Shown here piece by piece: positions 1,699 through 45,091 of a stretch of DNA of 45,091 bases. The position numbers and the translations under genes were made by a program. The notes beneath the pieces were generated by a model that had not been told where the DNA came from, made no database searches, and was given only the letters and a program-made list of their open reading frames with translations. The stretch is taken from positions 1 through 45,091 of the IMG/VR virus record IMGVR_UViG_3300025086_000057; one strand, 5' to 3'. Origin of the DNA: a virus. The stretch's first letter is position 1. Each line of letters begins with the position of its first letter.

Positions 1699-1860
1699 AT
1701 GGAATTAGAGATGGCTTTAATGCACTTAATGAACGTGGTAGCTAATCAAGACGAAGAACTACCATCATTCATAGAGAACTTTGATAAGGCTAAGAAGTTA
1801 ACTGGAGATGAAGAAGTAATGAATAGTATCTTTTCCTCTAAAGATAAAGCAGAGGCTTAA
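1699..1860 (+). CDS. Small helical protein, 53 aa (start uncertain)
   Basis: An open frame fills the gap between 1673 and 1861 and ends at TAA 1858-1860, directly against the next ATG. The first ATG is 1699, but the frame is open upstream to 1636 and the added residues extend a clean heptad-like helix. An ATT at 1645 with AGAGG six bases upstream is an alternative non-canonical start giving about 71 aa. The visible sequence is acidic, with Leu/Met-rich helical N-terminal turns. The function is unknown. Confidence 0.5.
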   Translation: MELEMALMHLMNVVANQDEELPSFIENFDKAKKLTGDEEVMNSIFSSKDKAEA

Positions 1861-2052
1861 ATGAGAGATAACAATCACATAATTTCCTTGATAGAAGAAA
1901 GGCTAGAGAAAGGAAAGAGAGAGTACAAGCAAGAGGTAGATGTAAATGATGGTAGGGATTGGATGAATGAAGCACTAGAAGAATTACTAGATGCTTGTGT
2001 ATATCTATCAGCACAAATAATAAAAGTAAAAGAAAGGAGTGTGAATGAGTAG
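1861..2052 (+). CDS. Short MazG-like helical protein, 63 aa
   Basis: The C-terminal half has the E-A-L-E-E-L-L-D-A-C-V-Y-L pattern seen in short phage proteins of the MazG/dUTPase-like all-alpha nucleotide pyrophosphohydrolase superfamily, where paired acidic residues bind metal. The protein is only 63 aa, much shorter than a full MazG (about 100 aa per domain), so it may be a reduced or non-catalytic relative. AGAGG lies five bases upstream of the ATG, which abuts the preceding stop. Its 3' end overlaps the annealing-protein gene by eight bases. Confidence 0.6.
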   Translation: MRDNNHIISLIEERLEKGKREYKQEVDVNDGRDWMNEALEELLDACVYLSAQIIKVKERSVNE

Positions 2053-3232: not shown

Positions 3233-3502
3233 ATGAAAATAACGAACAACGAATACGAAGTAATCATTAGGTCTTTGAAAGCTTATAGAGATATAATCAA
3301 GATAAGTTCTACTTCTGTTAAGGCTACAAGAGATAGCTTGAAAGAGGTTGATTCAATGGTAGACAAGTTAAGAAAAGAATACAACAGACTAGCTGAGATA
3401 AATATAGCAGATGGTATGACGGCAGATGAAGAAGAGCTATATCCTAGCAGAGTCTATGATGAGTATGGTGGAGCACCTAATGACAGTAGTAAAGTGGAAT
3501 GA
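3233..3502 (+). CDS. Helical hypothetical protein, 89 aa
   Basis: The ATG directly follows the SSB-like gene's stop without an obvious Shine-Dalgarno sequence, so expression probably depends on translational coupling. Residues 10-60 look like long amphipathic helices with many Lys/Arg and Val/Leu, possibly a coiled coil; the C-terminus is acidic. No family is recognised. The next gene begins 23 bases before its end. Confidence 0.65.
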   Translation: MKITNNEYEVIIRSLKAYRDIIKISSTSVKATRDSLKEVDSMVDKLRKEYNRLAEINIADGMTADEEELYPSRVYDEYGGAPNDSSKVE

Positions 3503-3704
3503 GATAGAGAAGAAGTTTACTGATAGGTTTGGTTGGTTGGAAGGATTAGAATATATGACTTCAACTTCGAGAGATGTACTAAAGTACAGAAGCGTATATG
3601 AACTTAACAGTAATGAAGACTATCTATTAATAAAAAAGCTAAGAGATAAATACAAAGAGGAGGCAAAATGCCTAGAAAAAGAAAAAGCCAAGTGGTCAAA
3701 GTAA
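3480..3704 (+). CDS. Hypothetical protein, 74 aa
   Basis: The frame is open further upstream, but ATG 3480 has GGTGGAG six bases before it and gives only a 23-base overlap with the preceding gene, so I use it. The protein is charged, helical and Lys/Glu-rich in its last 30 residues, with an aromatic-rich middle. The function is unknown. It overlaps the HTH gene at 3668 by 37 bases. Confidence 0.6.
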   Translation: MTVVKWNEIEKKFTDRFGWLEGLEYMTSTSRDVLKYRSVYELNSNEDYLLIKKLRDKYKEEAKCLEKEKAKWSK

Positions 3705-3874
3705 TGAACTTCCTAAATACAGGAAAGAACCTAACAGCTAAGTCAGCTATCAGTAGATTCGGTGTCTATAGATTAGCAGCCGTTATACATATACTACGTA
3801 CTACGTTTAGTATGGATATAACAACTAGCATGAATAAGAAAGGGTTTGCTACCTATAGTCTGACAACTAAGTAG
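3668..3874 (+). CDS. Small helix-turn-helix DNA-binding protein, 68 aa
   Basis: The basic start (P-R-K-R-K-S) is followed by a compact helix-turn-helix-like core at about 13-50, where T-A-K-S-A-I-S-R-F-G-V-Y-R-L looks like helix two, turn and recognition helix. The ending, G-F-A-T-Y-S-L, is typical of a winged beta hairpin in phage HTH proteins of this size. It probably regulates phage genes; the target is unknown. GAGGAGGCAAA precedes the ATG. A hairpin at 3888-3911 follows directly, marking a possible transcript boundary. Confidence 0.7.
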   Translation: MPRKRKSQVVKVMNFLNTGKNLTAKSAISRFGVYRLAAVIHILRTTFSMDITTSMNKKGFATYSLTTK

Positions 3875-3887
3875 ACCTAATGGTTTT

Positions 3888-3911
3888 GAGGGTGTACCAT
3901 TAAACACCCTC
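3888..3911 (+). terminator. Stem-loop after the HTH gene (possible terminator or attenuator)
   Basis: GAGGGTGT at 3888-3895 pairs perfectly with ACACCCTC at 3904-3911 around an 8-base loop. The following bases are only moderately T-rich (TTAACTTTA), so this is not a classic strong intrinsic terminator; partial termination or mRNA protection are alternatives. It separates the HTH gene from the next ribosome binding site at 3924. Confidence 0.5.
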
Positions 3912-3934
3912 TTAACTTTAAATAAGGAGAGATT

Positions 3935-4063
3935 ATGTTTGAATATACTTTAATAGAAATACTTCAGACTCAAGAGTTTGATACGTTAATCCAGACTCTA
4001 TATGGAGTTTCGTTGTGGGCGTTTATAACTATAAGGCTTAATAGAATAGAACATAAGCTTTAA
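3935..4063 (+). CDS. Small membrane-like protein, 42 aa
   Basis: ATG 3935 has a strong AAGGAG site seven bases upstream and the frame ends at TAA 4063. The middle (about 20-33) is hydrophobic and aromatic, with a basic end (R-L-N-R-I-E-H-K-L), consistent with a single short membrane helix or an amphipathic helix. No family is recognised. It lies between a stem-loop and a 163-base non-coding stretch. Confidence 0.5.
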   Translation: MFEYTLIEILQTQEFDTLIQTLYGVSLWAFITIRLNRIEHKL

Positions 4064-4076
4064 ATAATTAGGAGTG

Positions 4077-4209
4077 TAAGGGAGCAATAATTAACATAAC
4101 AATAAATAATCTTGTAAGCAGAATAAAATAAGCGAACAAGAAATTTGTCTTTAACTTTAACAAGACTTGTGTTGTATTTAAATTAATGGTTTGGCGACTA
4201 GCTCCCTTA
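4077..4209 (+). ncRNA. Non-coding stretch bounded by a 9-bp inverted repeat (candidate structured RNA or origin)
   Basis: TAAGGGAGC at 4077-4085 is the exact reverse complement of GCTCCCTTA at 4201-4209. The 115 bases between contain TCTTGT (4110-4115) pairing with ACAAGA (4136-4141), and GTCTT (4147-4151) pairing with AAGAC (4162-4166). No credible gene lies between 4064 and 4226. The arrangement suggests a closed multi-hairpin RNA or a cruciform regulatory/origin element just upstream of a gene ribosome binding site. No known RNA family is recognised. Confidence 0.35.
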
Positions 4210-4226
4210 TTCCTATAAAGGATTAT

Positions 4227-4484
4227 ATGAAAAGAAAAAATAAAATAACAAACAGAGAAGTAATAAAACAATTAGGTATTGTAAGTAAGATAGCTCTATC
4301 TAATCAATCATCATTAACAATACTTAGTGACTTTCTTTATAACTATCTAGATATGAAGGGAGAGACAGAAGAGTATACTAAATTTATGGAGAGTAAAATA
4401 AGTGACATTCTTACAGAAAGCAAGCAAGGGACTACTGAAGTTCCTAGAGAGTCCATTCCCAAAGAAGAGAAAGAAGAGGAGTAA
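4227..4484 (+). CDS. Hypothetical protein, 85 aa
   Basis: A TTG start at 4191 is possible, but ATG 4227 has AAAGGA four bases upstream and avoids running into the inverted repeat at 4201-4209, so I choose it. The N-terminus is very basic (K-R-K-N-K) and helical; the C-terminus is a Glu-rich tail. No Cys and no membrane segment. It precedes the junction resolvase by two bases. The function is unknown. Confidence 0.65.
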   Translation: MKRKNKITNREVIKQLGIVSKIALSNQSSLTILSDFLYNYLDMKGETEEYTKFMESKISDILTESKQGTTEVPRESIPKEEKEEE

Positions 4485-4486
4485 AC

Positions 4487-4846
4487 GTGCCATCAAAAAG
4501 TAAAGCGAAAGGGAATAGATATGAGAGAGAGTGTGTCAATAAAGCTCTTGAACATGGACTAGAATCAAAGAGAGCGTGGGGTTCTGATGGTAGGTCGTTA
4601 GGTCTACACGCTGAAGTGGATATGGTAATAGAAGATTTTACAGTACAATGTAAAGTAAGAAAAAGGATAGCAGAATGGATAAAACCTTCGGAGGAAATAG
4701 AGGGATTACACCTTCAATTAGTAAAAGAGTCAAGAGGCAAGTCGTACGTTATAATAGAGATGACTATGTTTCTAACACTACTATCACTCATAAAAAAGGT
4801 TACGGGCAGTACGAAGATATTTCGAGAGCTAAAGTCGCTGATTTAG
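4487..4846 (+). CDS. PD-(D/E)XK Holliday junction resolvase-like nuclease, 119 aa
   Basis: A GTG start lies directly after the previous gene, with GAGGAG upstream. The nuclease core is visible: K-G-N-R-Y-E-R-E near the start (Glu13), Asp45 in A-E-V-D-M, and Gln54/Lys56 in V-Q-C-K. This is the E...D...(E/Q)xK layout of small phage junction resolvases. It should cut branched intermediates made by the exonuclease, annealing protein and replication. Its last 172 bases are also read in another frame by the next gene, an unusually long overlap. Confidence 0.75.
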   Translation: MPSKSKAKGNRYERECVNKALEHGLESKRAWGSDGRSLGLHAEVDMVIEDFTVQCKVRKRIAEWIKPSEEIEGLHLQLVKESRGKSYVIIEMTMFLTLLSLIKKVTGSTKIFRELKSLI

Positions 4847-5106
4847 TATACTACTTTGGAAATAGTTGGATTGATTGGGAGTGTGTTGATATACCTGAGA
4901 GTGGTAGAGAGGCATGGAGAGCTAACAAAGGTAGGAAAGTTAAAGAACTTGCTTCATCAGAGGTTTTTAGATGTCTTAAATGTAAGAGAGCATACGAGAC
5001 TAGGAGCATGGATTCTTCTGGTAAAGTTGTAGGAGATAACTACTTAAGTTCTTCTATTTTTAATAATGTACCTTTAGTGAAAAAGGATTGTGATTCCTGT
5101 GGCTAA
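4675..5106 (+). CDS. Zinc-ribbon-like protein, 143 aa, overlapping the resolvase gene
   Basis: The frame has no ATG, GTG or TTG between 4675 and the zinc-binding region, and ATG 4675 has AAGGA seven bases upstream, so the gene must start inside the resolvase gene and share 172 bases with it. The N-terminal 50 residues are very basic; C-L-K-C at about 103-106 and C-D-S-C at the C-terminus form a probable zinc ribbon. A nucleic-acid-binding role is inferred from charge and zinc ligands. A sequencing frameshift is possible, but both frames look coherent. Confidence 0.6.
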   Translation: MDKTFGGNRGITPSISKRVKRQVVRYNRDDYVSNTTITHKKGYGQYEDISRAKVADLVYYFGNSWIDWECVDIPESGREAWRANKGRKVKELASSEVFRCLKCKRAYETRSMDSSGKVVGDNYLSSSIFNNVPLVKKDCDSCG

Positions 5107-5464
5107 ATGTCCACTATGTAAAGGCACAATAAATAAGAAAGATGTTTCATTGAGCTTAGAGAGGCTAAGACTGGCTAGGTCTCCTAGACTTTTAAGCGTT
5201 GTAGATAGAATAGTTAATAGTCTCTCTGCTCATTGGAATATACAAGACGTAGATGTGTGTGGTTTACTAACAGAAATACAAGGGATAGATGATAATATTA
5301 TTATTGAGTCTATAAATAAGTTTGAGAAAAGAAGTGGTATAGATAAAGGTTATGGTATAAAATATTTGTCAGCAGTAGTAAAGAACGAGAACAAAAGCTA
5401 CTTACTTAGACAAGAGTACGAGAGAAAAAACTTAGATAGAATGCCACCAAAGTTAAAGGATTAA
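5099..5464 (+). CDS. Possible helicase loader / DnaD-like replication protein, 121 aa
   Basis: It begins at GTG 5099 (GTG 5090 is an alternative, but only two bases from AAGGA) and overlaps the zinc-ribbon gene by eight bases. After an N-terminal C-P-L-C pair the protein is helical, and the C-terminal G-Y-G-I-K-Y-L-S-A-V-V-K-N-E pattern resembles the end of DnaD-like and other replication-loader proteins. It stands one base before the DnaB-type helicase gene, the usual place for a loader. The function is inferred mainly from context. Confidence 0.5.
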   Translation: MAKCPLCKGTINKKDVSLSLERLRLARSPRLLSVVDRIVNSLSAHWNIQDVDVCGLLTEIQGIDDNIIIESINKFEKRSGIDKGYGIKYLSAVVKNENKSYLLRQEYERKNLDRMPPKLKD

Positions 5465-5465
5465 T

Positions 5466-6797
5466 ATGAATAGTGTTGAATTAGAAAAAGCTTTATTAGG
5501 ATGTCTTATATCAGATAGTCAGTATATAGACCCTGTAAAGCAATGGATAACAGAAGATGATTTCTTCTACTCATCCTTTAATAAAAAAGTATGGCAAGCT
5601 TTAGATAAACTTCATGGTAGAGGTTTAGATGTAGACTTAAATACTGTATGTGAAGAAGTGGGTGCTTCTAAAGATGGATACCATTCTATGTATGAGATTA
5701 GTGGGTTCTTAGATAAGGTTACTTCTCCTTCTAAGGCTAACGTGTATGCAAGAAGGTTACACTCTTACTATCTACGTAGGATACTAGACACTCAGATGCA
5801 CTCTATATCTAATAATATAAATGATGGTTCACTAGATACTAATAGATTACTAGAAGATGCACATACTACTATAGGTAATATAATAAAGCTTCAACCTAAT
5901 AAGACTTTCGATATGGATGGACTACTGGACAAGACTAAAGAATCTATATTTGAATCTACTACTCTTATACCTACAGGTATAAATACATTAGATAGAGTAA
6001 TTACTGGTATGACTAGAGGTGAGATAACTATTATAGCAGGTAGACCCGGTAATGCAAAGACTACTGTGTCAGCTAATATAGCTAGGAATCTAGTACATCA
6101 AGGTATGAAGGTAGCTATGTTTAATAGAGAGATGCCTAACACAGAGATGATGAAGAAGTTCTTAGCTATGGAGTCAGACTCTATACAATATAGAAACCTA
6201 CGTAATAGTATAGACATAGATAGTAAGATTATAGAAGATGTGTCTGCTAAAATATCAGAGTTATATAATGGTAAGTTATTTATGTTTGACGACGTTAGAG
6301 ATATGGAGAATACTTTTAGAGAGATAAAAGCAGTTAAGCCTGACGTAGTTATTGATGACCATATAGGATTGATAGAGCATCCACCACAAGATAGAAGAGA
6401 CTTAAGGCTAAAGATAGGAGATGTAAGTCGTAACTATAAATGGTTAGCTAAGGCTGAGAACATGTCTGTTATATTAGTATCTCAAATGAATAGAAATATG
6501 GAGCATAGAAACGATAGAGTACCTAGGTTGTCTGACCTAGCAGAGTCTGGTAACTTGGAACAAGATGCAGAGATAGTAGTATTCTCTCATTATCCTTGGG
6601 TGTCTAGGTATGGCGATGATGGTAATAGCGATTGCTACTTAGAACTTATAGTAGCTAAGAATAGATATGGACAAACTAACTCATGTGAGGTTGGGTATCA
6701 TGGTAATAGTTGTATGGTTACAGACTCAGAGCAAGAAGCTGTGTCTATAGCTAAGAAAAGAGGGGATGATATAGGTGGCACACCTAATCCTTTTTAA
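5466..6797 (+). CDS. Replicative DNA helicase, DnaB family
   Basis: A 443-aa protein with the two-domain DnaB layout. The N-terminal helical domain (1-105) starts with the typical E-L-E-K-A-L-L-G-C-L. The RecA-like domain has Walker A G-R-P-G-N-A-K-T-T at about 192-200, an E-M-P segment, Walker B V-V-I-D-D-H, then a V-S-Q-M-N-R motif. It unwinds DNA ahead of the fork as a hexamer. No primase or polymerase is encoded nearby, so it probably recruits host enzymes. AAAGGA is five bases before the ATG. It is the last gene of the rightward block and meets the leftward block tail to tail. Confidence 0.93.
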   Translation: MNSVELEKALLGCLISDSQYIDPVKQWITEDDFFYSSFNKKVWQALDKLHGRGLDVDLNTVCEEVGASKDGYHSMYEISGFLDKVTSPSKANVYARRLHSYYLRRILDTQMHSISNNINDGSLDTNRLLEDAHTTIGNIIKLQPNKTFDMDGLLDKTKESIFESTTLIPTGINTLDRVITGMTRGEITIIAGRPGNAKTTVSANIARNLVHQGMKVAMFNREMPNTEMMKKFLAMESDSIQYRNLRNSIDIDSKIIEDVSAKISELYNGKLFMFDDVRDMENTFREIKAVKPDVVIDDHIGLIEHPPQDRRDLRLKIGDVSRNYKWLAKAENMSVILVSQMNRNMEHRNDRVPRLSDLAESGNLEQDAEIVVFSHYPWVSRYGDDGNSDCYLELIVAKNRYGQTNSCEVGYHGNSCMVTDSEQEAVSIAKKRGDDIGGTPNPF

Positions 6798-6805
6798 TAA
6801 AAAGG
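6789..6805. terminator. Small symmetric hairpin at the convergence point
   Basis: CCTTTTT (6789-6795) and AAAAAGG (6799-6805) form a 7-bp inverted repeat with a 3-base spacer exactly where the two gene blocks converge and their stop codons overlap. It presents a T or A run on either strand and could end transcription in both directions, but the stem is AT-rich and weak. Confidence 0.3.
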
Positions 6806-7642
6806 TGGAGTGCGTCTTTTAAAAGGGTCAAAATTATACGTAGGAGTATTAATTATTTTTTTAATTTCCCTATTAGTTAATAATTCTTTATTGTTTAACA
6901 TATCTAATATTTGTTCTTTAGCTTTACTACTCATAATCATAGGTATATCTTTTGATAGAATTTCATTTAGAACATTAGACCTTCTTGTAAGAACGCTTGG
7001 TAATTCTTCTTCCATTTTCCATTTAGGAAATTTCAATATATCTATTAACTTAACATTATCAATAGGTATATTCCCTCTTACTCTTTCTTCAAATTCGAAC
7101 CTAGGGTTCATTTGTTTTGCATACTTACCAAATACTTCTTTATAATGGTCTAAATCGAGACTTTCCGTAAGTGTTTTTCTATAATTAGTCTCAGCATATG
7201 GCTTTATGCTGAATCCCTTTTTAACCATTGCATCTCTATCTAATACAAATTTAATATCTGTGCCTATACTACTATGGGGTCTTGATGTAAACATAGGGTC
7301 TCTAGTAACTGATACTTCCTTCCCTTTAATCTTCCCAGATTTTAATATATTTAAAGCATTTGCACTAAATGTATGATGGGATACAGGGTTACGTAAACCA
7401 GTCTTACTCAATATCTTTCTACCTACATCACCTAAGCTTTTCAATGTAAGTATAGGGGACATAGCTATGTTTTCTACAACAGGGTCTACACCACCTACAT
7501 AACTTGGTCTTTTATCTGCGTACATAACACCAGTCTTATCAAACTTATCTAGCTCTGCCTCTAGTATTAAATTGTCTATATTACTATGGACTCCTGTAGA
7601 AGAAGGAGCTGATGTGTTGAGGTAATCTTTTATACTAGCCAC
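6794..7642 (-). CDS. ADP-ribosyltransferase-like protein, probable virion-delivered effector
   Basis: A 282-aa protein starting at GTG 7642, which shares one base with the upstream stop (TAGTG) and has GGAAG just before it. The C-terminal half fits the ADP-ribosyltransferase fold of phage polyvalent proteins: S-H-H-T-F at 88-92 near an A-N-I-L-x-S-G-like strand, V-S-V-T-R-D at 110-115, F-V-L-D-R at 132-136 and an acidic F-E-F-E-E-R catalytic segment at 182-187. It would move ADP-ribose from NAD to a host target. It is the last gene of the late block, right behind the large ejection protein, which suggests packaging in the capsid. The fold call is moderate; the target is unknown. Confidence 0.6.
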   Translation of the reverse strand: MASIKDYLNTSAPSSTGVHSNIDNLILEAELDKFDKTGVMYADKRPSYVGGVDPVVENIAMSPILTLKSLGDVGRKILSKTGLRNPVSHHTFSANALNILKSGKIKGKEVSVTRDPMFTSRPHSSIGTDIKFVLDRDAMVKKGFSIKPYAETNYRKTLTESLDLDHYKEVFGKYAKQMNPRFEFEERVRGNIPIDNVKLIDILKFPKWKMEEELPSVLTRRSNVLNEILSKDIPMIMSSKAKEQILDMLNNKELLTNREIKKIINTPTYNFDPFKRRTPPFY

Positions 7643-18981: not shown

Positions 18982-19440
18982 TTACTCCGTAGACCCTGCA
19001 CCGGGAATATCAGCAGAGCTTGAAGTTCCTACTCCATCTACTGCTGTATTCTGAGGATTGCCAAAACTTATATTTCCATCAGCACTTCCTACGGTTCTTA
19101 CATTGCTATCAATATCATCAAATATACTATGGTCTGACTCAAAGTAAAAGAAGTTATACCCTCCCCCAAGGTTAAGCCTTCCTGTAATTGTACCGGGGGC
19201 ACTTGTTCCTATTTCTAGCCTTGCAGTACGTTTAGATATATACTTTGAAAGAATGCTACCGCTTACATCAGATGGGTTAGCTTTCTGTTGCACTAGACTA
19301 CCTGCAGATTTTATTTTTCCCTGTGCATCAACTGCCATATTAGTTATAGCACTTGACTCTGGTTCAGATAAATCTCTTGCATCCTTAACTGTATTTATTC
19401 CAGCGTCAAATTTATTTATAGTATATAGTTGTTTAGGCAT
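18982..19440 (-). CDS. gp10-like tail protein, separate N-terminal part, 152 aa
   Basis: It opens with N-K-F-D-A-G-I-N-T-V-K-D-A-R-D-L and later D-A-Q-G-K-I-K-S-A-G-S, the usual N-terminus of gp10-like tail proteins, where it continues directly into the long beta-rich body. Here the frame stops at TAA 18984-18982, and the 933-aa body starts in the same frame two codons later. The last 35 residues are Gly/Ser/Asp-rich and linker-like. Either the protein is genuinely made in two coupled pieces or the stop is a mutation or is read through. Confidence 0.65.
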   Translation of the reverse strand: MPKQLYTINKFDAGINTVKDARDLSEPESSAITNMAVDAQGKIKSAGSLVQQKANPSDVSGSILSKYISKRTARLEIGTSAPGTITGRLNLGGGYNFFYFESDHSIFDDIDSNVRTVGSADGNISFGNPQNTAVDGVGTSSSADIPGAGSTE

Positions 19441-19820
19441 TAATCAAGTATCTCCACATGTACCAAGTCATCGAATCCATTATCTTTAACATCTCCGTCA
19501 GAGTCCCAGTCTCCACCCCAACGAACCTTAATATCAAGTTGTTTAGCTATCCCTCTAATCATTCCGCCCATATAGTGAAACCCGTCTCTATTCTTCCAAT
19601 CTATAGGATAAGGAGATAGGTCTACAGCTTTACCTTCCATGTGCTTAGAGTACTTTACTTTAGTAGCTCCTTTTTTTAATAACTCTTCTTGCCTTTCACT
19701 TGTGCGTAAACCTTCTATTATAGTAACATCCATAATTTTAATAAGCTCATTAAGAACTTTAACTAACCTATCGTCTACACCTTTTAATCTTTTCTTACTT
19801 GTCTTCCCAAATCTAGGCAT
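19440..19820 (-). CDS. Endolysin: M15-type D,D/L,D-peptidase (VanY-like)
   Basis: A 126-aa peptidase with the zinc-binding pattern S-K-H60-x6-D67-L-S-P-Y and a C-terminal D-D-L-V-H121-V-E, typical of M15 phage endolysins that cut peptide stems of peptidoglycan. G-L-R-T-S-E-R near residue 40 is also characteristic. It has no signal sequence, so it needs a holin; candidates lie 1.2-2.4 kb upstream in the same operon. TAATG overlaps join it to its neighbours on both sides. Confidence 0.85.
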   Translation of the reverse strand: MPRFGKTSKKRLKGVDDRLVKVLNELIKIMDVTIIEGLRTSERQEELLKKGATKVKYSKHMEGKAVDLSPYPIDWKNRDGFHYMGGMIRGIAKQLDIKVRWGGDWDSDGDVKDNGFDDLVHVEILD

Positions 19821-33675: not shown

Positions 33676-35259
33676 TTAAATTTTTTGACCAGTAATCCAA
33701 GAGATAGTTCTTTTAACCGTTTCAACCTTATGGGATTTGGTCTTATCTTGTTTAAACTCTGAGGCTTCAAACTTTTTACTAAGAGGAGGTCTGGATTTAT
33801 TTACAGCATACCATAAGCCATCTAAGACATCATCGTTCTTTCCTTTAGGAAACTGAAACATCTCATCTACTAAAGCTGTATGTTTTCTTTTTATAAACAT
33901 CTTACGTCTATTTACTATAGGAGCAAGTAATGACTCAAGCCTATCTTCTTTCTTAATACCAGTTGGAGGTCTAACTCCTAAAGCTATACCGGGTGCAACC
34001 TTTCTATCTTGTCCTGTCATTCTATTAACAGCATCTTTAATTATACCCTGAGCTCCTACATGTTCAACATTAACTCTTTTTACAGGAGAATATTCTTTAG
34101 CATACTTAAATATTTCTTCAGGCATATCATATAGAGGTATATGTTCACGCATATAGTCAATAACATAGATATTCCTATCACTATCTATAGCTATAACCAT
34201 TATCATTTGATAATCACTTGATGCAGTAGACTCGTATGCTAAGTCAACACCAATATAAATATTAACAGGTATAGCTTCTTTACTATTAACCAAGTAAGCA
34301 TAATTGTTTTTACTTTCAAATTCATGGTCGTAATACTCCAGTCTATCTGTTTTAAACTTAGCGTTCTCTAAATCTCTTGCTTCATTTAAATATTCTTGTG
34401 CGAACTTATGGGATAAACCTACGTCTTCAAACCTTCTACGTATATCATCTAGTTTTTGTTTAGAGAAATATGAACTCCATAATACATTACCATCAGCGTC
34501 TATAGCCTTATGATACATTACATCCCATGCATACTTTCTTTTATCTCTGATTGCTTCTGTGTAGCCATCGTATATACTTTGCAGAAAAGAATCATAATGA
34601 ACTATAGTACCAATTAACCATATAGAACCCTCATTACCTGCTGAGTTCTCTAGAGCTGGCTCAACTGTAGACATAACCCACTCTTTAATCTCTCTCCTCC
34701 TGTCTGGAGTCTTTGTATTTAACTCAGACTCAAAGTCATCAAGTATAATCTTAGTATATCTAAGACCTAATTGAGACCTACCACGTAATCTTTGAGATGT
34801 TCCTTTAGCTATAACTCTATCTCCCTTACTAGTAGTAAACTCTTTCTCTGTCCATTTGCTACCACGTAAGTCTCCAAAGTAATAATTTAATGCAGGGTTC
34901 ATCTCTATATGGTTCTGCATATACTTTATGTGGTCTATAGCCTGTGATTGTTCTTCTGCTACCCAAGCTATAAACTCTTTCTTTCCTTCTGGATTAAAAT
35001 ATAGATGATATAGTAATGCTGTTTTAGCTAAGGTAGATTTACTATGACCCCTAGGTAATATAATACAATTTCTTTTCTTATCTGGGTGTAGTAGTAGTTC
35101 ACTTAATTCGTAATGATACGGGGCAGGGGTAGACTTCATATAGTCTTCAGGTAGGAATAGCTGACCAAAGGAGACTACATCCTTTCTAGCCAACTCTAAC
35201 ACTCGCTCCTTTTCAGAAACGTTGTGTTTATTTATGTTAAATGTATTAGCTTCTGACAT
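33676..35259 (-). CDS. terL: Terminase large subunit, 527 aa
   Basis: An ATPase-nuclease packaging motor. Walker A is P-R-G-H-S-K-S-T at 69-76, Walker B I-I-L-D-D-F-E at 171-177, and the nuclease domain starts with I-G-V-D-L-A-Y-E at 336-343 (Asp339), with later acidic residues toward D-D-V-L-D-G. Length and motif spacing are normal for tailed-phage terminases. Together with the small subunit it cuts and pumps DNA into the procapsid through the portal. Its 5' end overlaps the cyclotransferase-like gene by 28 bases. Confidence 0.93.
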   Translation of the reverse strand: MSEANTFNINKHNVSEKERVLELARKDVVSFGQLFLPEDYMKSTPAPYHYELSELLLHPDKKRNCIILPRGHSKSTLAKTALLYHLYFNPEGKKEFIAWVAEEQSQAIDHIKYMQNHIEMNPALNYYFGDLRGSKWTEKEFTTSKGDRVIAKGTSQRLRGRSQLGLRYTKIILDDFESELNTKTPDRRREIKEWVMSTVEPALENSAGNEGSIWLIGTIVHYDSFLQSIYDGYTEAIRDKRKYAWDVMYHKAIDADGNVLWSSYFSKQKLDDIRRRFEDVGLSHKFAQEYLNEARDLENAKFKTDRLEYYDHEFESKNNYAYLVNSKEAIPVNIYIGVDLAYESTASSDYQMIMVIAIDSDRNIYVIDYMREHIPLYDMPEEIFKYAKEYSPVKRVNVEHVGAQGIIKDAVNRMTGQDRKVAPGIALGVRPPTGIKKEDRLESLLAPIVNRRKMFIKRKHTALVDEMFQFPKGKNDDVLDGLWYAVNKSRPPLSKKFEASEFKQDKTKSHKVETVKRTISWITGQKI

Positions 35260-35609
35260 TTATCTGAATACCAGTCTTTACCCGGAACTTCTTGAAACAC
35301 TCCTGTACTTTGAAGTAGCAATGTTCCTATAGTATACATCCAAGCTTTTACCTTCTTATCACCTTTATAAGCTTCAACTAGTCTTCTTTCATATAATCCA
35401 GAGTCTACCCCTTCATATACATCATAGTTATCTATGTCTTGCTCATCTACATCAACAACCTCTACAACCAAATCACTAGCATCTTGATTAGGCATTGCAA
35501 CAGGATAGTTTCTATGACCGGGAAAGTACAAGTTAAATCCATCTACCTTCCATGTCTCTCTCTTTCCATTACGTAGAGTTCCGTATACTGCTAGTTTATT
35601 TGTCTTCAT
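35232..35609 (-). CDS. Gamma-glutamylcyclotransferase-like (AIG2/GGCT fold) protein, 125 aa
   Basis: The family signature Y-G-T-L-R at 9-13 forms the substrate-binding loop, and Y-E-G at 65-67 supplies the catalytic Glu66, followed by Y-x-R-R. Members release 5-oxoproline from gamma-glutamyl amines or peptides. The frame opens at 35645, but ATG 35609 places the motif at the usual distance from the N-terminus. Its presence between the terminase genes is unusual. Because the phage also has two amidoligases and a glutamine amidotransferase, it may trim gamma-glutamyl products of that pathway. Confidence 0.75.
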   Translation of the reverse strand: MKTNKLAVYGTLRNGKRETWKVDGFNLYFPGHRNYPVAMPNQDASDLVVEVVDVDEQDIDNYDVYEGVDSGLYERRLVEAYKGDKKVKAWMYTIGTLLLQSTGVFQEVPGKDWYSDKCQKLIHLT

Positions 35610-35808
35610 TAAATCTATTCTTATAGTTCCAAAAATCCTTAACATCTTCTATGTATCCAGTATCAAACTTTTCACTATACACTTGATACTCATAGAATAG
35701 CTCATATATCTCATTAGCTATATATTCTCTGGATAAACTATCATCTATCTTGTTATCGTTTTCGCTTGCATCTTCTAATACCTGTATGCATACTTCATAT
35801 AGGTTCAT
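35596..35808 (-). CDS. Acidic hypothetical protein, 70 aa
   Basis: Highly acidic and Tyr-rich, with a Y-I-A-N-E-I-Y-E-L-F-Y-E-Y helix. It begins in an ATGA overlap with the small terminase and overlaps the cyclotransferase-like gene by 14 bases, so it is co-translated with packaging genes. No family recognised. A small DNA-mimic-like or adaptor role cannot be judged from sequence. Confidence 0.65.
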   Translation of the reverse strand: MNLYEVCIQVLEDASENDNKIDDSLSREYIANEIYELFYEYQVYSEKFDTGYIEDVKDFWNYKNRFNEDK

Positions 35809-36566
35809 TTATCTTCCGTCCTTTCAGCTTTCGCTATTTGTTTTACATTGTTTCCACCTATTGCATCCAACTGCTCTGGAGAAAATCCTTGAAATAAAGT
35901 AACAGACTCCGACTTCTTCTCTGTATCTCTCATACCTGCTATAGCTACTAGCTCTTTAAGCAATGAGACCTTATCACTATCTCTAGAAGCATCAGACTCA
36001 ATGATGTCTTTCATCTTTTCTAATATGTAAAGAGGCGTTATCTCAGCCTCATTCATTACCTTTTCTATTTCTTCTTTAATCAAACCTTGTACCCTCTTCG
36101 TACTCATTAGTATTTTAGCTTCTCTTTCTGCATAACTCCTGTTTTCTGTAGGGTAAGCAGTTAAGAAGGCATCTGTTATGTCATCACCTTTAGCTACGTA
36201 CTTAGCAAACAAAAACTCTTTAGACGTAGGCTTAACTCTTTCTTTATTTATATCATACTTTGATTTATCTTTACCAAATGTATAGATATTGTTCTTCATT
36301 TTTCCCTTCATCTTAGTAGAAGGCTTACAAACATAAGAACCTATTACAGTTCTGATGTAGTAGTTATAAATCTTTTCTCTACCAGAAGCTTTTAATCCAC
36401 CTCTTTTAAGTACCATACATACTTGACCATCATCACATAGAACCCAATCACCCTCTAAACCATTCCTCCAATCAGTAATCAGAGGTTTGTTTGGCATATA
36501 GCGCTTAAACTCTTCTTCATCTTGGAATAGAGGGTGTTCTATACTTTTAATCTTTCTGGTCTTCAC
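35805..36566 (-). CDS. terS: Terminase small subunit, 253 aa
   Basis: It starts at GTG 36566 in a GTGA overlap with the phosphoesterase gene. Residues 110-180 carry the terminase small subunit pattern: T-S-K-E-F-L-F-A-K-Y-V-A-K-G-D-D-I-T-D-A-F-L-T-A-Y-P then A-K-I-L-M-S-T-K-R-V-Q-G-L-I, a helix-turn-helix-like DNA-recognition region followed by an oligomerisation helix. The first 100 residues form an extra basic, strand-rich domain. It recognises phage DNA for packaging by the large subunit. Confidence 0.85.
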   Translation of the reverse strand: MKTRKIKSIEHPLFQDEEEFKRYMPNKPLITDWRNGLEGDWVLCDDGQVCMVLKRGGLKASGREKIYNYYIRTVIGSYVCKPSTKMKGKMKNNIYTFGKDKSKYDINKERVKPTSKEFLFAKYVAKGDDITDAFLTAYPTENRSYAEREAKILMSTKRVQGLIKEEIEKVMNEAEITPLYILEKMKDIIESDASRDSDKVSLLKELVAIAGMRDTEKKSESVTLFQGFSPEQLDAIGGNNVKQIAKAERTEDK

Positions 36567-37324
36567 TTAGCTCTTAATACCTTACCATCTACTGTGCTAA
36601 CTCCATTTACAATCTGATGGACAGTAACATTAAAGTTTCTATTAGGGTGAAAGTCTACAATAGCAAAAGCATGTTGCCAGTTATGTTCTCTATTACCTAA
36701 CCAAGCATTAGCCTCTGCTCTCATATCTTTTAAGCAACCAATAGACCAAGCAGACTTAACTCCATCCATGTGTGTCACTGAAGATTGCTGGATGTCGTGA
36801 TGATGTCCATACATAACATTACCCCCAAGACGTATGAGATGATTACGAGTGTGATGTACGCCTGCAAAATGATGTCCATGGTAGAAATTGATTTTACCGA
36901 TTTTAAGCATCTTACCAATCTTGTGATACTTGTAGCCACGTTCTTTAAGTTTAAGTGCATGTTTAACTAACATCCTATCTTTAAGATATGGATTTTCATG
37001 TGCGAACATATTAAGCCAATCATCATGATTACCTTCACAGAAATGTCTTTCCTTCGTTCCTGCTTTATTTAAAGACTTATCTATTGTATCCATACCTTTG
37101 TTAACATCTTCTATCTCTTTTACTACAAATGGAAGCTGGTACTCTAGCGGAGGTCTCTTCTTCTTCTTCCATTGCCAATGTGATACAGACTCCCACTCTC
37201 CAGTATCTCCTAGGTCAATGTATATATCAGGCTTTACTAACTCAATAGCCTTACAAAGAACCTTTATAGCTGCTTTATCCTCAAAGGGGAAGTGTTTATC
37301 TGGTGTTACTATAGCTCTTTTCAT
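36563..37324 (-). CDS. Calcineurin-like metallophosphoesterase, 253 aa
   Basis: All family metal-binding motifs are present: D9-K-H11, G39-D40 (L-G-D-T-G-E-W), G98-N-H-D101, H149-G-H-H152 and G173-H-H-H176. The enzyme hydrolyses phosphoesters at a two-metal centre; the substrate may be nucleic acid, a nucleotide or protein phosphate. It is common in phages beside terminase genes. It starts in an ATGA overlap with a tiny membrane protein and is followed by terS in a GTGA overlap, so it is expressed with packaging genes. Confidence 0.88.
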   Translation of the reverse strand: MKRAIVTPDKHFPFEDKAAIKVLCKAIELVKPDIYIDLGDTGEWESVSHWQWKKKKRPPLEYQLPFVVKEIEDVNKGMDTIDKSLNKAGTKERHFCEGNHDDWLNMFAHENPYLKDRMLVKHALKLKERGYKYHKIGKMLKIGKINFYHGHHFAGVHHTRNHLIRLGGNVMYGHHHDIQQSSVTHMDGVKSAWSIGCLKDMRAEANAWLGNREHNWQHAFAIVDFHPNRNFNVTVHQIVNGVSTVDGKVLRAK

Positions 37325-40391: not shown

Positions 40392-40538
40392 ATGAGAGAG
40401 ATAATACATCATCTACTAGGCTCTTGTGGAGAGCATCATATCAGTCTACTGACTATATTGTCTAGTGGATTTGTTGTACTCTACAAAGATTATATTCTAC
40501 ATATAATTAGAGAGGTGAAAGATGTTCTACTCAAATGA
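40392..40538 (+). CDS. Small hydrophobic protein leading the amidoligase operon, 48 aa
   Basis: It starts at ATG 40392 behind GAGAGGTAAT and ends at TGA 40538, 17 bases inside the amidoligase gene, whose own ribosome binding site (GAGGTGAAAG) lies in this gene. It has a His-rich start (I-I-H-H-L-L, G-E-H-H) and a hydrophobic centre that could span or lie on the membrane. The overlap implies translational coupling to the amidoligase. No family recognised. Confidence 0.55.
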   Translation: MREIIHHLLGSCGEHHISLLTILSSGFVVLYKDYILHIIREVKDVLLK

Positions 40539-42429
40539 AGTCTACATATCTAATATATGTAGTGCTAGAGAACTAAAGAACGAAGACGCTAGATTCTCTA
40601 ATACTTCTATAGATGATATGATTAGAGGTTCAAGACCTCTAACAAAACAGATAGAGAACACTTGGTTTCTACGACTAGGTTACTCTCTTCTAAAATACAG
40701 ACTCTTTAAAATTATAGATGTAGTAGATTATGAGAATTCAGCAGAGTCTATGAGTTCTATAGAGAAGAGACCTAATCTAATACTTGAATCTATCTACGGA
40801 GATAATGTTATAATAGCTAGGGCTAGAGATGTTTTGTTTTGTACAGCACCACCTTCTATAGAGATTGCTCATGATAGAAACATAAGAAGTCGTCTACCTA
40901 GTATCTTTAGAGACAAAGATAACACATCTTTTGAGAGATGGTGGTACGCTACTCCATGGCGTAGAAGTGGTTTACTCAAGAGAGACCAAACAGATATGTT
41001 TGAATATCTGTCTACTGATTATATCTCTAGGGTTTCTGATGTAGATGCATACCATACAACCTACAAGATATGGAAAGATAAATTATTTGTAGACAGACTA
41101 GATAGTAGAGTATCTAATCCTAATAGATTCTATCTTGACTCTAAGACAAATAGATTTCTTAACTTTGTAAAGAGACACGAACCTCTGGAGGCAGAAAAAT
41201 ATGTACATTGCACCTATTGTAGTAAGGTAGTTTCAGAGTTCAAAAATATTTCTGCTATAGGTGAGGTCTGCTTAGATTGTTACGGGGGAGTAGAAATACC
41301 CTGTGGAATATGTCTAAGTACAGATACAATCCCTAATATAAATTACTCTAAAGATTACGATAGTAGACTCAGAAGTATTCTACAATCACTTGGTATAGAG
41401 ACATCTCATCGTAGATGTGCACACAAAGTACACAAAGAATGTGATAGGTGTTCTATTCTAGAGACTATAGATATAGACAAGCTACATAGTATGGAGACCT
41501 TAGTAGATAGAAAGCAATACCTTGCATCATTCCATAGAAATGGCTATGGAGAAACATATCACTCTATTGATGGAGACAATCTCTGTACTAATTGTGCAGA
41601 GCTAAGTCTAAACTCTAGGTTGTTCTCTCCCTACAGAGGACGCACTCTACCTAAGATGCTTTCTAAGCACAAAAACTATACTAGACATATAGGTATAGAG
41701 AGTGAGGTTATTACACACTACGAAGATGTAGAAGATTACCAAGAGAATGCTTGGTGTCCAGATAATTTTGAGGTAGTACCAGATGGTTCTCTAGGTAGTG
41801 GTGGTGTAGAGTTCAGAACAGATAGACCACTAATAGGTAGCTTAGTAGACGAGTCTCTAGATGGACTAGAGCAGGTACATAGAGATGAAGACAATCAAGT
41901 CTCTACAGATTGTGGAGTACATATACATATCAATGCTATGGACTTTGGATTCAGAGAACTAAAAAGTCTCTTGATGTTGACCAGCTCTATACAAAAGACT
42001 ATCTACAATTCTCTACCACAGAGTAGAGTTACTAATAGTTATGCTAGACCTATAGAGCTTAGTCCTGTAGATATAGCACAACTAAAAGACTTGCCTTCTC
42101 TAGTAAGAAGTTACTATAGTATGGCAGATGACTCGTTCAATAGTAGTAGGTACAACGATGCTAGGTACATAGGTACTAACCTACACGCTAGGTTCTTCCT
42201 AGGTACTATAGAGTTCAGATACCACGAGGGAGAGATATACTCTAAGAATATAAAGAGGTGGATAAGATTTCTTAATAGAATAATGGACACCTCTAAAGAT
42301 TTACATAGAAATACAAAATTGTATCAGAAGGTATTGTCTAGTTCCAGTAATGAGATGGATATTATCCATAGTATTGGTGGTGCAGAGAGTACAGAATACA
42401 TAGAAGAGAGAATAAACGACAACAAATAA
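40522..42429 (+). CDS. Amidoligase (COOH-NH2 ligase, glutamine-synthetase-like fold) with zinc ribbons, 635 aa
   Basis: The C-terminal 245 residues carry amidoligase-family motifs: G391-I-E-S-E395 (metal-binding), P-D-G-S-L-G-S-G-G-V-E-F-R (about 423-435), C464-G-V-H-I-H469, an S-R-V-T-N-S-Y-A segment near 507, and T562-I-E-F-R566 followed by a His. These enzymes use ATP to join a carboxylate to an amine. Residues 230-360 contain several C-x2-C pairs (Cys230/233, 250/253, 261/264, further pairs near 306 and 354), i.e. zinc-ribbon modules that may hold the target. The first 220 residues are unrecognised. It is followed after 11 bases by a glutamine amidotransferase and then a second amidoligase. 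Confidence 0.8.
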   Translation: MFYSNEVYISNICSARELKNEDARFSNTSIDDMIRGSRPLTKQIENTWFLRLGYSLLKYRLFKIIDVVDYENSAESMSSIEKRPNLILESIYGDNVIIARARDVLFCTAPPSIEIAHDRNIRSRLPSIFRDKDNTSFERWWYATPWRRSGLLKRDQTDMFEYLSTDYISRVSDVDAYHTTYKIWKDKLFVDRLDSRVSNPNRFYLDSKTNRFLNFVKRHEPLEAEKYVHCTYCSKVVSEFKNISAIGEVCLDCYGGVEIPCGICLSTDTIPNINYSKDYDSRLRSILQSLGIETSHRRCAHKVHKECDRCSILETIDIDKLHSMETLVDRKQYLASFHRNGYGETYHSIDGDNLCTNCAELSLNSRLFSPYRGRTLPKMLSKHKNYTRHIGIESEVITHYEDVEDYQENAWCPDNFEVVPDGSLGSGGVEFRTDRPLIGSLVDESLDGLEQVHRDEDNQVSTDCGVHIHINAMDFGFRELKSLLMLTSSIQKTIYNSLPQSRVTNSYARPIELSPVDIAQLKDLPSLVRSYYSMADDSFNSSRYNDARYIGTNLHARFFLGTIEFRYHEGEIYSKNIKRWIRFLNRIMDTSKDLHRNTKLYQKVLSSSSNEMDIIHSIGGAESTEYIEERINDNK

Positions 42430-42440
42430 GGAGACACTAT

Positions 42441-43457
42441 ATGTGTGGTATATTCGGGTTCGCTAAGACAAGTGGACACCAGACAGAAAACCAGCTAGAG
42501 ATGTTAAAAGATGTACTAACAGAACTAGCAGATGAATCCTCTATTAGAGGTACTGATAGTACAGGAGTATCTATCATACAACCTAATAGTAGGAGAACTT
42601 ACAAGACTCTACTAGACTCATCTACGTTAGTAGGTACAGGAGATTGGACAGAGTTACTAGATAGTATCAATGTAGATACCACTATAGCTATAGGTCACGT
42701 AAGACTAGCTACTCATGGAATAGTAAAGACTCGTAACGCCCACCCGTTTCACGTAGGTGATGTTGTTGGGGCACACAATGGTATAATACATAACTATAAC
42801 AAGGTAGCAAAGTCTCTAGGTAAAGAGGTAGAGGTAGACTCTCAAGTCATCTTCGCATCTCTTAATAGAAACGAAATGAAGAACGCTTTCGAGGATATAG
42901 ACGGGGACTTCGCTATCACTTGGATTAAAGAGAGTAATAGAAAGATACATCTAGCTAGAGAGTCTGGTAGACCTATGCACGTAGCCTATTGGAAGAAAGC
43001 TAGGGTTCTACTATGGGCATCTACTAAAGAAATACTAGAGACATCTATGTTGAAGGCTGGTCTTAGATTACCTGTTAGTAAAGTACAAGAGGATTACATC
43101 TTCACCTACGATACAGACAAGTTCTCTAACAAGCCTAGTGTAGAGCAACAAGAGTTCTATACTATGAGTCAATGGAACAGGTATGATACTACAAAGTATT
43201 ATGGTACGTATGGTGCTTACGGGTGGCAAGACTCTACAGACTTTGAGACCTGCGACATGAATCCTAGTCCAGCAAGTAAGAATCTACTCAAACAAAGTAA
43301 TGAGTTAATGTGTGGTATATGCTATGAGTGGGTAGATAGCGATGAGATAGAGATTGTTAACAGAGAGAACATGTGTATAGATTGTGAGTACCAAGTAGAC
43401 ATAAGTACACTACCCTCTAAAGATAAGGAGATAGGTAATGAAGAGTTCCCTTTCTAA
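42441..43457 (+). CDS. Class II glutamine amidotransferase with C-terminal zinc ribbon, 338 aa
   Basis: The catalytic Cys is residue 2 (M-C-G-I-F-G), as in GlmS/PurF/YafJ-type Ntn amidotransferases, exposed after Met removal. Other motifs are R-G-T-D-S-T-G at 36-42, G-H-V-R-L-A-T-H-G at 85-93, N-A-H-P-F at 99-103 and H-N-G-I-I-H-N at 112-118. It hydrolyses glutamine to glutamate and ammonia; no synthase domain is fused, so the ammonia acceptor is probably another protein. The C-terminus adds C-G-I-C and C-I-D-C pairs and ends E-E-F-P-F, like an SSB tail. It lies between two amidoligase genes; a strong AAGGAG site precedes it. Confidence 0.9.
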   Translation: MCGIFGFAKTSGHQTENQLEMLKDVLTELADESSIRGTDSTGVSIIQPNSRRTYKTLLDSSTLVGTGDWTELLDSINVDTTIAIGHVRLATHGIVKTRNAHPFHVGDVVGAHNGIIHNYNKVAKSLGKEVEVDSQVIFASLNRNEMKNAFEDIDGDFAITWIKESNRKIHLARESGRPMHVAYWKKARVLLWASTKEILETSMLKAGLRLPVSKVQEDYIFTYDTDKFSNKPSVEQQEFYTMSQWNRYDTTKYYGTYGAYGWQDSTDFETCDMNPSPASKNLLKQSNELMCGICYEWVDSDEIEIVNRENMCIDCEYQVDISTLPSKDKEIGNEEFPF

Positions 43458-43749
43458 GAAGAAGGTAATACTTATAGGATTACCCGACCCTATTAAACTA
43501 AAGTCTAAGAAGTATATTATAGAGACTTTATATAATAGAGCGAAGAAGAATCCTTTCCTAAAAGAACACTCTTATGAAGAGTACCTAGAGTTTTTACAGA
43601 CTCAGATTTCTACTCTAGGTTCTATAGAAATAGAAGAGAGTGACGAAGAGATAGAGACTCGTATATTCGATGCTCTAAAGAAAATGGATTGGATTAAAGT
43701 TATTAACACTTTTGTACTAGGAATAATTACTACTAACATAGGAGTCTAG
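43438..43749 (+). CDS. Hypothetical protein inside the amidoligase operon, 103 aa
   Basis: It overlaps the end of the amidotransferase gene by 20 bases, with AAGGAG upstream, and ends one base before the second amidoligase. It has a basic N-terminus (S-K-K-K-V-I-L-I-G), an acidic centre (E-I-E-E-S-D-E-E-I-E) and a hydrophobic C-terminal helix (W-I-K-V-I-N-T-F-V-L-G-I-I) that might anchor it to membrane. No family recognised. Conserved placement between the enzymes would suggest a partner or a modification substrate. Confidence 0.6.
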   Translation: MKSSLSKKKVILIGLPDPIKLKSKKYIIETLYNRAKKNPFLKEHSYEEYLEFLQTQISTLGSIEIEESDEEIETRIFDALKKMDWIKVINTFVLGIITTNIGV

Positions 43750-43750
43750 T

Positions 43751-44887
43751 ATGAGTAAATCTAGTGAAGAAGTAGAAGAAGAAGTTCTTGTAGAGTGTGA
43801 GAACTGCGAGGTAAAATTAGAAGAGTACCACGCTCACTCTCTATGTGAAGAGTGCTACCATGAGATATATGTTTCATGTTGTCATTGTGGAGACGAAGTA
43901 TACACAGACGAATCTTATTACTCTCATACTAGTTCTGACCATTATTGTGGAGATTGCTACTTTGAGGTATATAATAGTTGTTACAACTGTGAGGAAGAAG
44001 TAGAGAGGGATACAACCTACTGGCATAATCAAGAGCCCTATTGTGAATGTTGTGTACCAGATACTTCTGATTGCTTAGTAGAAAACATAGAGAATGCAAC
44101 ACCTCCTAGTATGTCTAGAGAAGCAGAGACATTTAACAATCTAAATGTCAATAGACTTGTAGGCTTAGAAGCTGAGTGTATGTACCCTCATACTGAGAGT
44201 ATACGTACTCCCTCTAATTGGGCGACTACGTATGATGGTTCTATAAGTACAGGGGGAGACTACGAAGGTATAGAGTTGGTCAGTACTCCTTCAAGTGGAG
44301 ACCTGTTATATAGCCAAGTGTTTGACCTAGTAGATTGGGCAAGAAGTTACGATGCAGTAGTAAACTCTAGTTGTGGACTACACGTACACTTTGACTCTAC
44401 GAATCTCAATGCTAGACAGGTTGCTCATATAGGTATTGTCTACTCTAAGTATCAGCATTTACTAAAAGATATGATGCCTCCCTCGAGGCAAGGCTCTAGA
44501 TGGTGTAAAGATTTCAGTATGAATGTTGATACTCTAAGAAATATAGACACAGAAGAAGAGTTAATAGAAGAGTACTATGAGTCTATGGATTGTATACCTA
44601 GTACAGAGAAGTATAATGATGCTAGGTATTGTGGTCTTAACTTACACTCTAGATACTTTCATGGTAGTCTAGAGTTCAGGCTACACTCTGGTACTCTAAA
44701 TAAGACTAAGATAGTTAATTGGATTCGTATACTAAATGCAATTATAGAGAAAGGTATAGAGATAGAAAAAGATTCATCTTTAGTAGATGAGTTCTTAACG
44801 TATGGAGACTTAACTAGCTTTGTAAATACTATAGGAGAAGAGTTAATCACCTATCATTCAAAGAGAGTAATGAAGTTTGCAAGTTAA
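43751..44887 (+). CDS. Second amidoligase with N-terminal zinc-finger array, 378 aa
   Basis: The N-terminal 105 residues form a LIM-like series of C-x2-C pairs (E-C-E-N-C, L-C-E-E-C, S-C-C-H-C, Y-C-G-D-C, S-C-Y-N-C, C-E-C-C). The rest is an amidoligase domain: G138-L-E-A-E142, D-G-S at about 160, C208-G-L-H-V-H213, an R-Y-C-G-L-N segment and S306-L-E-F-R310 with a following His. Compared with the 635-aa enzyme it is a shorter, separately evolved paralogue. Probably ATP-dependent formation of an amide or isopeptide bond. AGGAG is six bases before the ATG. Confidence 0.8.
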   Translation: MSKSSEEVEEEVLVECENCEVKLEEYHAHSLCEECYHEIYVSCCHCGDEVYTDESYYSHTSSDHYCGDCYFEVYNSCYNCEEEVERDTTYWHNQEPYCECCVPDTSDCLVENIENATPPSMSREAETFNNLNVNRLVGLEAECMYPHTESIRTPSNWATTYDGSISTGGDYEGIELVSTPSSGDLLYSQVFDLVDWARSYDAVVNSSCGLHVHFDSTNLNARQVAHIGIVYSKYQHLLKDMMPPSRQGSRWCKDFSMNVDTLRNIDTEEELIEEYYESMDCIPSTEKYNDARYCGLNLHSRYFHGSLEFRLHSGTLNKTKIVNWIRILNAIIEKGIEIEKDSSLVDEFLTYGDLTSFVNTIGEELITYHSKRVMKFAS

Positions 44888-44905: not shown

Positions 44906-45085
44906 ATGGAAAATATAACTTTTGATAAAGAAGAATTAGTTTATATATTGAAAGGATTATATAGCCAGCAACAATCTTATGGAGGAGGGTATAGACATAT
45001 AACGAATCATATAACGTATCAACATTTTAAAAATGTACGTTTAATCATAGAAAAAATAGAAAAAGAAAATAAGGAGAACGATTAA
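44906..45085 (+). CDS. Small hypothetical protein across the junction, 59 aa
   Basis: Complete here: ATG 44906 with AAGGAG six bases upstream and TAA 45083-45085. The same gene, minus four codons, is seen at 1-168. Hydrophilic, with G-G-G-Y in the middle and a Lys/Glu/Ile helix at the end. It is the gene that links the amidoligase operon to the recombination genes on the circular map. The function is unknown. Confidence 0.75.
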   Translation: MENITFDKEELVYILKGLYSQQQSYGGGYRHITNHITYQHFKNVRLIIEKIEKENKEND

Positions 45086-45091
45086 AATGAA
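44918..45091. repeat. Right copy of the terminal direct repeat
   Basis: Identical to bases 1-174 apart from C at 44965 (T at 48). Removing one copy gives a circular map of 44,917 bp in which all reading frames run through the joint. Confidence 0.9.

Follow-up and report, generated by a model that had tools for sequence, protein, structure and literature searches.

Gene content of the locus

The DNA analysed here (the window) is the 45,091-nucleotide stretch formed by positions 1 to 45,091 of the IMG/VR virus record IMGVR_UViG_3300025086_000057. Four plus-strand frames lie at 40522-44887. They encode two amidoligases, LigA (635 amino acids, aa) and LigB (378 aa), a stand-alone glutamine amidotransferase (GATase), termed GAT (338 aa), and a small protein, orf103 (103 aa), as follows.

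40522..42429, plus strand: LigA, with an N-terminal domain of about 228 aa to which no fold was assigned, a putative zinc-knuckle region (C230-C358) and a C-terminal Amidoligase_2 catalytic domain (residues ~385-600); assigned from PF12224, conserved Cys pairs and a structural model
42441..43457, plus strand: GAT, a class II glutamine amidotransferase with a putative C-terminal zinc knuckle (C291/C294/C312/C315); assigned from PF13522
43438..43749, plus strand: orf103, a small conserved protein with no assigned function; 27 invariant residues in 28 orthologues
43751..44887, plus strand: LigB, with putative N-terminal LIM-like tandem zinc knuckles (C16-C101) and a C-terminal Amidoligase_2 catalytic domain; assigned from PF12224 and invariant residues

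A first-pass annotation, made from the sequence of the window, had described a three-gene overlapping operon in which the two ligases directly flank the amidotransferase. The operon stands, but a fourth gene, orf103, had been missed between GAT and LigB. Overlap is confined to GAT and orf103 (20 nt); LigA and GAT are separated by 11 nt, and orf103 and LigB by 1 nt. The zinc knuckles of LigA, GAT and LigB had also been overlooked.

LigA and LigB are paralogous amidoligases

Two COOH-NH2-type ligases had been proposed, and both frames were found with every motif expected of them: GIESE, CGVHIH and TIEFR in LigA, and GLEAE, CGLHVH and SLEFR in LigB. The suggested comparison with Amidoligase_2 (PF12224) gave clear matches for LigA (2.3e-19, 70.7 bits) and LigB (6.5e-25, 88.9 bits; cut-off 22), and the same search returned no match in 14 control genomes. 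PHROGs agreed with the Pfam family assignments of the cassette enzymes and of the gamma-glutamyl cyclotransferase (GGCT) described below. The catalytic motifs of the glutamine synthetase superfamily (ExE, C-G-x-H-x-H and E-F-R) were conserved in 27 LigA and 28 LigB sequences. The invariant residues are E393, E395, D421, E430, C464-G465, H467, H469, R502, R548, N553, R557, E564 and R566 in LigA, and E140, E142, D162, E175, C208-G209, H211, H213, R246, N297, R301, E308 and R310 in LigB.

An AlphaFold model of LigA (pLDDT 80) had YbdK (1r8g; E=3.7e-5, probability 1.00), a GCS2-type carboxylate-amine ligase, as its best solved match, together with a Salmonella homologue. Weaker, non-significant matches were glutamine synthetase, Dop and PafA. 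The match to YbdK is remote, at 13% identity and TM-scores of 0.25 (query) and 0.41 (target); compared with this superfamily, LigA has other domain additions, and no Pup-like partner was identified. On the model, LigA carries a carboxylate-amine ligase or glutamine synthetase-like fold, albeit with low TM-scores. The first-pass annotation would have been contradicted by ligases lacking such a fold or their catalytic residues; instead, the PF12224 matches, the YbdK-like fold and the invariant residues all point the other way.

LigA and LigB are 29% identical over 228 residues. In a maximum likelihood tree of 34 catalytic domains, they grouped together (99/97) as sister clades (91/87 and 98/94), with the 12 other phage amidoligases outside this group; branches among the outgroups were long, and outgroup sampling was thin. 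Because the two group as sister clades, the pair stems from a duplication that took place in this lineage or earlier. Two other identities were considered and rejected. Neither ligase is a disguised PF14395 ligase, since both matched the PF12224 set and showed no profile similarity to the PF14395 set. Likewise, the N-terminal domain of LigA had no profile similarity to the ~190-aa gp17 of phage LUZ24.

GAT and the zinc knuckles

The proposed class II amidotransferase at 42441-43457 was confirmed by its match to PF13522 (GATase_6; 1.1e-17, 64.7 bits, cut-off 27). The active site (Cys2, R88, N113-G114 and D133) and the four tail cysteines are invariant in 28/28 sequences, and a profile search of the PDB retrieved GlmS and PurF.

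C-x2-C pairs number five in LigA, two in GAT and six in LigB, and most are invariant among orthologues; these knuckles are predicted to bind zinc. Those of LigB resemble LIM domains, with a Pfam LIM match below the cut-off (E=0.038) and PDB LIM chains at E-values down to 2e-4, a resemblance probably driven by cysteine spacing. None of 21 known phage ligases carries any such knuckle, and C-terminal CxxC knuckles are present in six of nine GATases of known phage modules. Their presence on the ligases too, as on the GATases of other phages, suggests that the enzymes form a physical complex or have a target in common.

Within the operon, orf103 is under the strongest constraint

Among 28 orf103 sequences, 27 of the 103 residues are invariant. 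Its ratio of nonsynonymous to synonymous substitution rates (dN/dS) was the lowest of the operon in every, or nearly every, pair tested, making it by sequence comparison the most constrained operon gene. No homologue was found in Pfam, PHROGs, the PDB, 50,697 phage records or 84,980 prokaryote genomes. The model, of low confidence (pLDDT 66), has four helices.

The C-terminal sequence (T/A)TNIGV is near-invariant and could pass for a functional tail. It is conserved because its codons encode the LigB Shine-Dalgarno sequence: within 43700-43760 the 3' end of orf103 reads ATA GGA GTC TAG T ATG, with AGGAG just 5' of the ATG. The tail diverges in two relatives, L132 and L205, in which the Shine-Dalgarno spacing differs. 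The tail was thus rejected as evidence for a role as peptide carrier or precursor of a ribosomally synthesized and post-translationally modified peptide. The Shine-Dalgarno sequence does not account for conservation in the rest of orf103. Nor is orf103 a homologue of the ~190-aa (LUZ24 gp17) or ~73-aa (gp20) companion proteins of known modules, to which it showed no profile similarity.

The cassette is fixed in the lineage and under purifying selection

A terL scan of IMG/VR yielded 80 loci at 82-100% identity, and 27 related contigs were profile-searched for PF12224, GATase and GGCT. The order LigA-GAT-orf103-LigB was found in all 27 related operon copies read, as in the window, and also holds in the deeper branch L205 (orf103 43% identical). 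All 27 copies are complete or cut only near contig ends. PF12224 was detected in 25 of the 27 contigs, twice per operon copy, with one GATase per copy; the remaining two contigs stop before the operon, so two ligases and one GATase per copy are present in 25/25 covered genomes. Because order and content are kept in all covered relatives and in the deep branch, the cassette is core to the lineage and not a chance acquisition. In one contig, IMGVR_UViG_3300030101_002855 (63,940 bp; loci L140 and L141), both the operon and GGCT are present in two dissimilar copies; this contig is either a co-integrate phage or the product of an assembly that joined two related genomes.

Pairwise dN/dS (NG86) was 0-0.21 for orf103, ~0.05 for GGCT, 0.11-0.23 for GAT, 0.15-0.50 for LigA and 0.23-0.41 for LigB. 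All values are below 1, indicating purifying selection on all five genes. In the ligases, evolution is usually faster in the N-terminal and zinc regions (dN/dS up to 0.84) than in the catalytic domains (0.09-0.40). Such fast non-catalytic regions would be expected if they meet variable partners or targets; relaxed constraint would look alike.

A GGCT gene overlaps terL in the packaging arm

The first-pass annotation had also placed a GGCT-like gene elsewhere in the genome, starting at 35609. It lies next to the gene for the terminase large subunit (terL).

35232..35645, minus strand: GGACT/GGCT-like gamma-glutamyl cyclotransferase that probably starts at 35609 and whose 3' end overlaps the start of terL; assigned from PF06094 and phrog_2520
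33676..35259, minus strand: terminase large subunit, which marks the packaging arm; assigned from phrog_38 (2.5e-78)

Both the assignment and the start hold: the match to PF06094 is significant (6.4e-12, 46.5 bits, cut-off 22.8), and orthologues are conserved from M13 of the longer frame onwards, which corresponds to 35609. The catalytic-type glutamate E78 is present in 50/50 distinct orthologues and YGTLR in 48/50. GGCT was found in 24 of the 27 relatives, and the other three contigs end before the region, giving 24/24 covered genomes. Since it occurs in all relatives that reach the region, and near ligase and GATase genes in other phages, GGCT is supported as a consistent part of the set. 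Its stop codon falls within the beginning of terL (35232-35259); of 88 related loci, 87 show this overlap, at 22-43 nt. This arrangement suggests that translation of a metabolic-type enzyme is coupled to that of the packaging motor.

Genome context and lineage

The window ends, 1-174 and 44918-45091, match at 173 of 174 positions (one mismatch). Because these terminal 174 bp are shared, the window represents all or nearly all of a virus genome. IMG/VR lists the record as linear, and the 174-bp terminal overlap looks like that of a closed or terminally redundant genome. The overlap also means that LigB continues into the replication genes at 549-6797. Genes of the plus arm include those for a DnaB helicase, a RusA-like resolvase and an exonuclease (window position 549), whose orthologue comes directly after LigB in a distant relative. 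The minus arm contains TerS, GGCT, TerL, portal, capsid and tail genes. This places the ligases in the arm presumed to be early, and GGCT with the packaging genes. Promoter and terminator scans gave signals no better than those of shuffled sequences.

No integrase or repressor was seen among the window proteins scanned, and neither terL nor orf103 had a match in the 84,980 prokaryote genomes. Both results fit a lytic lifestyle, short of proof. Among the 50,697 phage records, no relative was detected by DNA, terL identity was below 60% to every entry, and the major capsid protein was matched in only four records; the collection holds no close relative of this phage.

Three further minus-strand genes were recorded. 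A calcineurin-like metallophosphoesterase (36563-37324; phrog_221) adjoins TerS and is kept in relatives whose contigs extend there. In OM43 phages, similar metallophosphoesterase genes co-occur with amidoligase and GATase genes (PMC10580990). The 282-aa product of 6794-7642 had no Pfam or PHROG match and by eye resembles an ADP-ribosyltransferase-type domain of internal virion proteins (TRDP...VLD...EERV). The gene at 19440-19820 encodes a small M15-type peptidase (PF13539 just under the cut-off), likely an endolysin or virion peptidase.

Comparison with known phage modules

According to the first-pass annotation, no full set of this kind was known in a lytic phage. This does not hold. A cluster of COOH-NH2_lig, Amidoligase_2, GATase_6, ATP-grasp and GGCT was annotated in UFV-P2 in 2014 (PMC3890496), phage tf was described in 2012 as having an amidoligase and a glutamine amidotransferase (PMC3517423), and the same two enzymes occur in marine OM43 phages (PMC10580990). 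We found the full cluster in LUZ24, SU7 (phiEco32 group) and the Zobellviridae KZY1 and RIO-1, and partial or variant forms in VR7901, 172P1, 7-11, Slicky01, a Manatee Spring podovirus and Salgado. The link between amidoligase, GATase and GGCT by gene neighbourhood, which the same annotation had drawn, is seen in these clusters. Across unrelated phages, the module families adjoin primase/helicase or exonuclease/helicase genes. The amidoligase/GATase/GGCT set is thus already known, and what is new here is a lineage-fixed variant.

In LUZ24, phiEco32 and Zobellviridae, the layout is COOH-NH2_lig (PF14395), a ~190-aa protein, PF12224, GATase_6, an ATP-grasp/RimK-like protein and GGCT. These modules and the window share PF12224, a class II GATase and GGCT in one genome, with the ligases and GATase placed by early replication genes. 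Both also have a conserved small companion gene among the enzymes, and the GATase of LUZ24-type modules often carries C-terminal CxxC knuckles. The lineage of the window differs in having two PF12224 paralogues in place of PF14395 plus PF12224, zinc knuckles on the ligases, orf103 in place of companions to which it has no profile similarity, and a GGCT in the packaging arm, on the other strand and outside the ligase cluster. PF14395 was found in none of 13 lineage genomes by a search that was positive in seven of eight known phages (RIO-1 missed). RimK-type ATP-grasp (PF08443) was likewise found in 0/13, and this search, also positive in seven of eight, missed the LUZ24 protein, so a divergent ATP-grasp could escape it.

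In known modules (loci L155, L158, L159, L154, L152, L153, L161, L162 and L164), an unannotated ~160-220-aa protein lies between the COOH-NH2 ligase and the amidoligase. Several copies have an R-x-x-R-x-x-K-G motif and a C-terminal YKG-x-x-VG motif. This protein may be the known module's own partner protein.

Two other systems were also compared. Arthrobacter phage Salgado (GGCT-amidoligase-GATase) likewise encodes a PF12224-type ligase, a GATase and GGCT beside an exonuclease and a helicase, and in the catalytic-domain tree its ligase groups nearer to LigA/LigB than the LUZ24 ligase does. It differs in having one ligase, no zinc knuckles, no orf103 and a GGCT inside the cluster. Prophage phi13 of Clostridium clostridioforme LM41 resembles the window in having two phrog_2443 amidoligases near each other and a GGCT; it differs in being a prophage, and its published table, the basis of this comparison, lists no GATase (PMC11318856).

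Discussion

Class II GATases release ammonia from glutamine, leaving glutamate; ligases of the glutamine synthetase superfamily form an acyl phosphate first and then an amide; GGCT enzymes convert gamma-glutamyl amides to 5-oxoproline and an amine. From the family assignments, we propose that GAT would split glutamine and free ammonia, and that LigA and LigB would use ATP to activate a carboxylate and join it to this ammonia or to an amine. The resulting amide or isopeptide bonds would sit on a peptide or protein of the host (or of the phage). By way of the zinc knuckles that they have in common, the three enzymes may dock onto each other or onto the target, and orf103 may be a structural or adaptor subunit. 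The operon probably acts early, because it is on the plus strand and runs into the replication genes. GGCT, on the minus strand and coupled to terL, would probably act later and release or recycle gamma-glutamyl groups as 5-oxoproline. A make-and-remove cycle, as the first-pass annotation had imagined, is possible. The same annotation took two ligases to suggest two steps or two substrates; this may be so, and the two are paralogues of each other. As a general scheme, amide or isopeptide bond formation by GAT with LigA/LigB, followed by GGCT action, has a little less than an even chance in our judgement, and any single substrate has a much smaller one.

Several points weigh against this scheme. 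GGCT is outside the ligase operon and may serve something else; no characterised reaction for any PF12224 member was found in the literature consulted. An adaptor, scaffold or structural role for orf103 is a guess that rests on a weak model, and a fold search of the PDB with this model gave no match.

That GGCT is unrelated to the operon, serving general gamma-glutamyl or glutathione metabolism or being kept for translational coupling with terL, is somewhat doubtful. Its constant overlap with the terL start and its place on the opposite strand, in the other arm from the ligases, fit this explanation, as does Bacillus phage 031MP004, in which GGCT and an amidoligase occur with no GATase seen nearby. 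However, the active site is intact, dN/dS is ~0.05, and GGCT adjoins the same ligases in many phages and is kept in every relative reaching the region. If it is linked to the ligases, GAT could supply glutamate and ammonia, a ligase could gamma-glutamylate an amine, and GGCT could remove the group as 5-oxoproline. In butirosin synthesis, BtrJ and BtrG add a gamma-glutamyl protecting group and then remove it as 5-oxoproline in this way. YbdK as the closest solved fold of LigA, the conserved GGCT-family active site and the recurrence of GGCT near such ligases in unrelated phages all speak for a protecting-group cycle of this type. Nevertheless, the YbdK match is remote, and GGCT is split off into the packaging arm throughout the lineage; that placement fits early making and late removal, or no link at all. 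We regard such a cycle as distinctly unlikely. More specific still is a conjugation cycle split in time, in which the early operon, with orf103 and the shared knuckles, would tag a phage or host protein through its two ligases, and the late, terL-coupled GGCT would remove the amide or gamma-glutamyl tag at packaging; this version is highly speculative, and we give it little weight.

Other explanations concern the target. Amidation or gamma-glutamylation of receptors or envelope peptides, which would alter lysis or block superinfection, corresponds to the proposal of Iyer et al. (2009) for phiEco32, cell-wall modification against superinfection, as cited in PMC10580990 and PMC11318856. MurT/GatD offers a precedent of a glutaminase and a ligase amidating peptidoglycan, albeit from other families (PMC3267633), and the weak M15-type peptidase match is also encoded in the window. 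Yet by eye the enzymes have no signal peptide or membrane segment and look cytoplasmic, and an experimental test in phiEco32 was not found in the literature; a surface target is unlikely. DNA bases or replisome proteins would be improbable targets, even though zinc knuckles might bind nucleic acid and exonuclease, primase or helicase genes lie right next to the module in the window, LUZ24, SU7, VR7901, KZY1, RIO-1, Slicky01 and Salgado. This position may only reflect early expression, and no base-hydroxylating or thymidylate synthase-like gene was seen among the proteins scanned. Finally, decaying or non-functional acquired genes could account for the fast evolution of LigA and LigB outside the catalytic domain; this idea has practically no chance and is refuted by conservation across the lineage, including the invariant catalytic residues, the operon copies complete or cut near contig ends, and dN/dS below 1.

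Amidoligase/GATase/GGCT modules recur in many unrelated phages, well-known lytic ones included. The form in this lineage is reduced and invariant, with four co-linear genes plus GGCT and no PF14395 or RimK-type ATP-grasp detected, which would make reconstitution and mass spectrometry simpler. It also adds a previously unrecognised constant partner, orf103.

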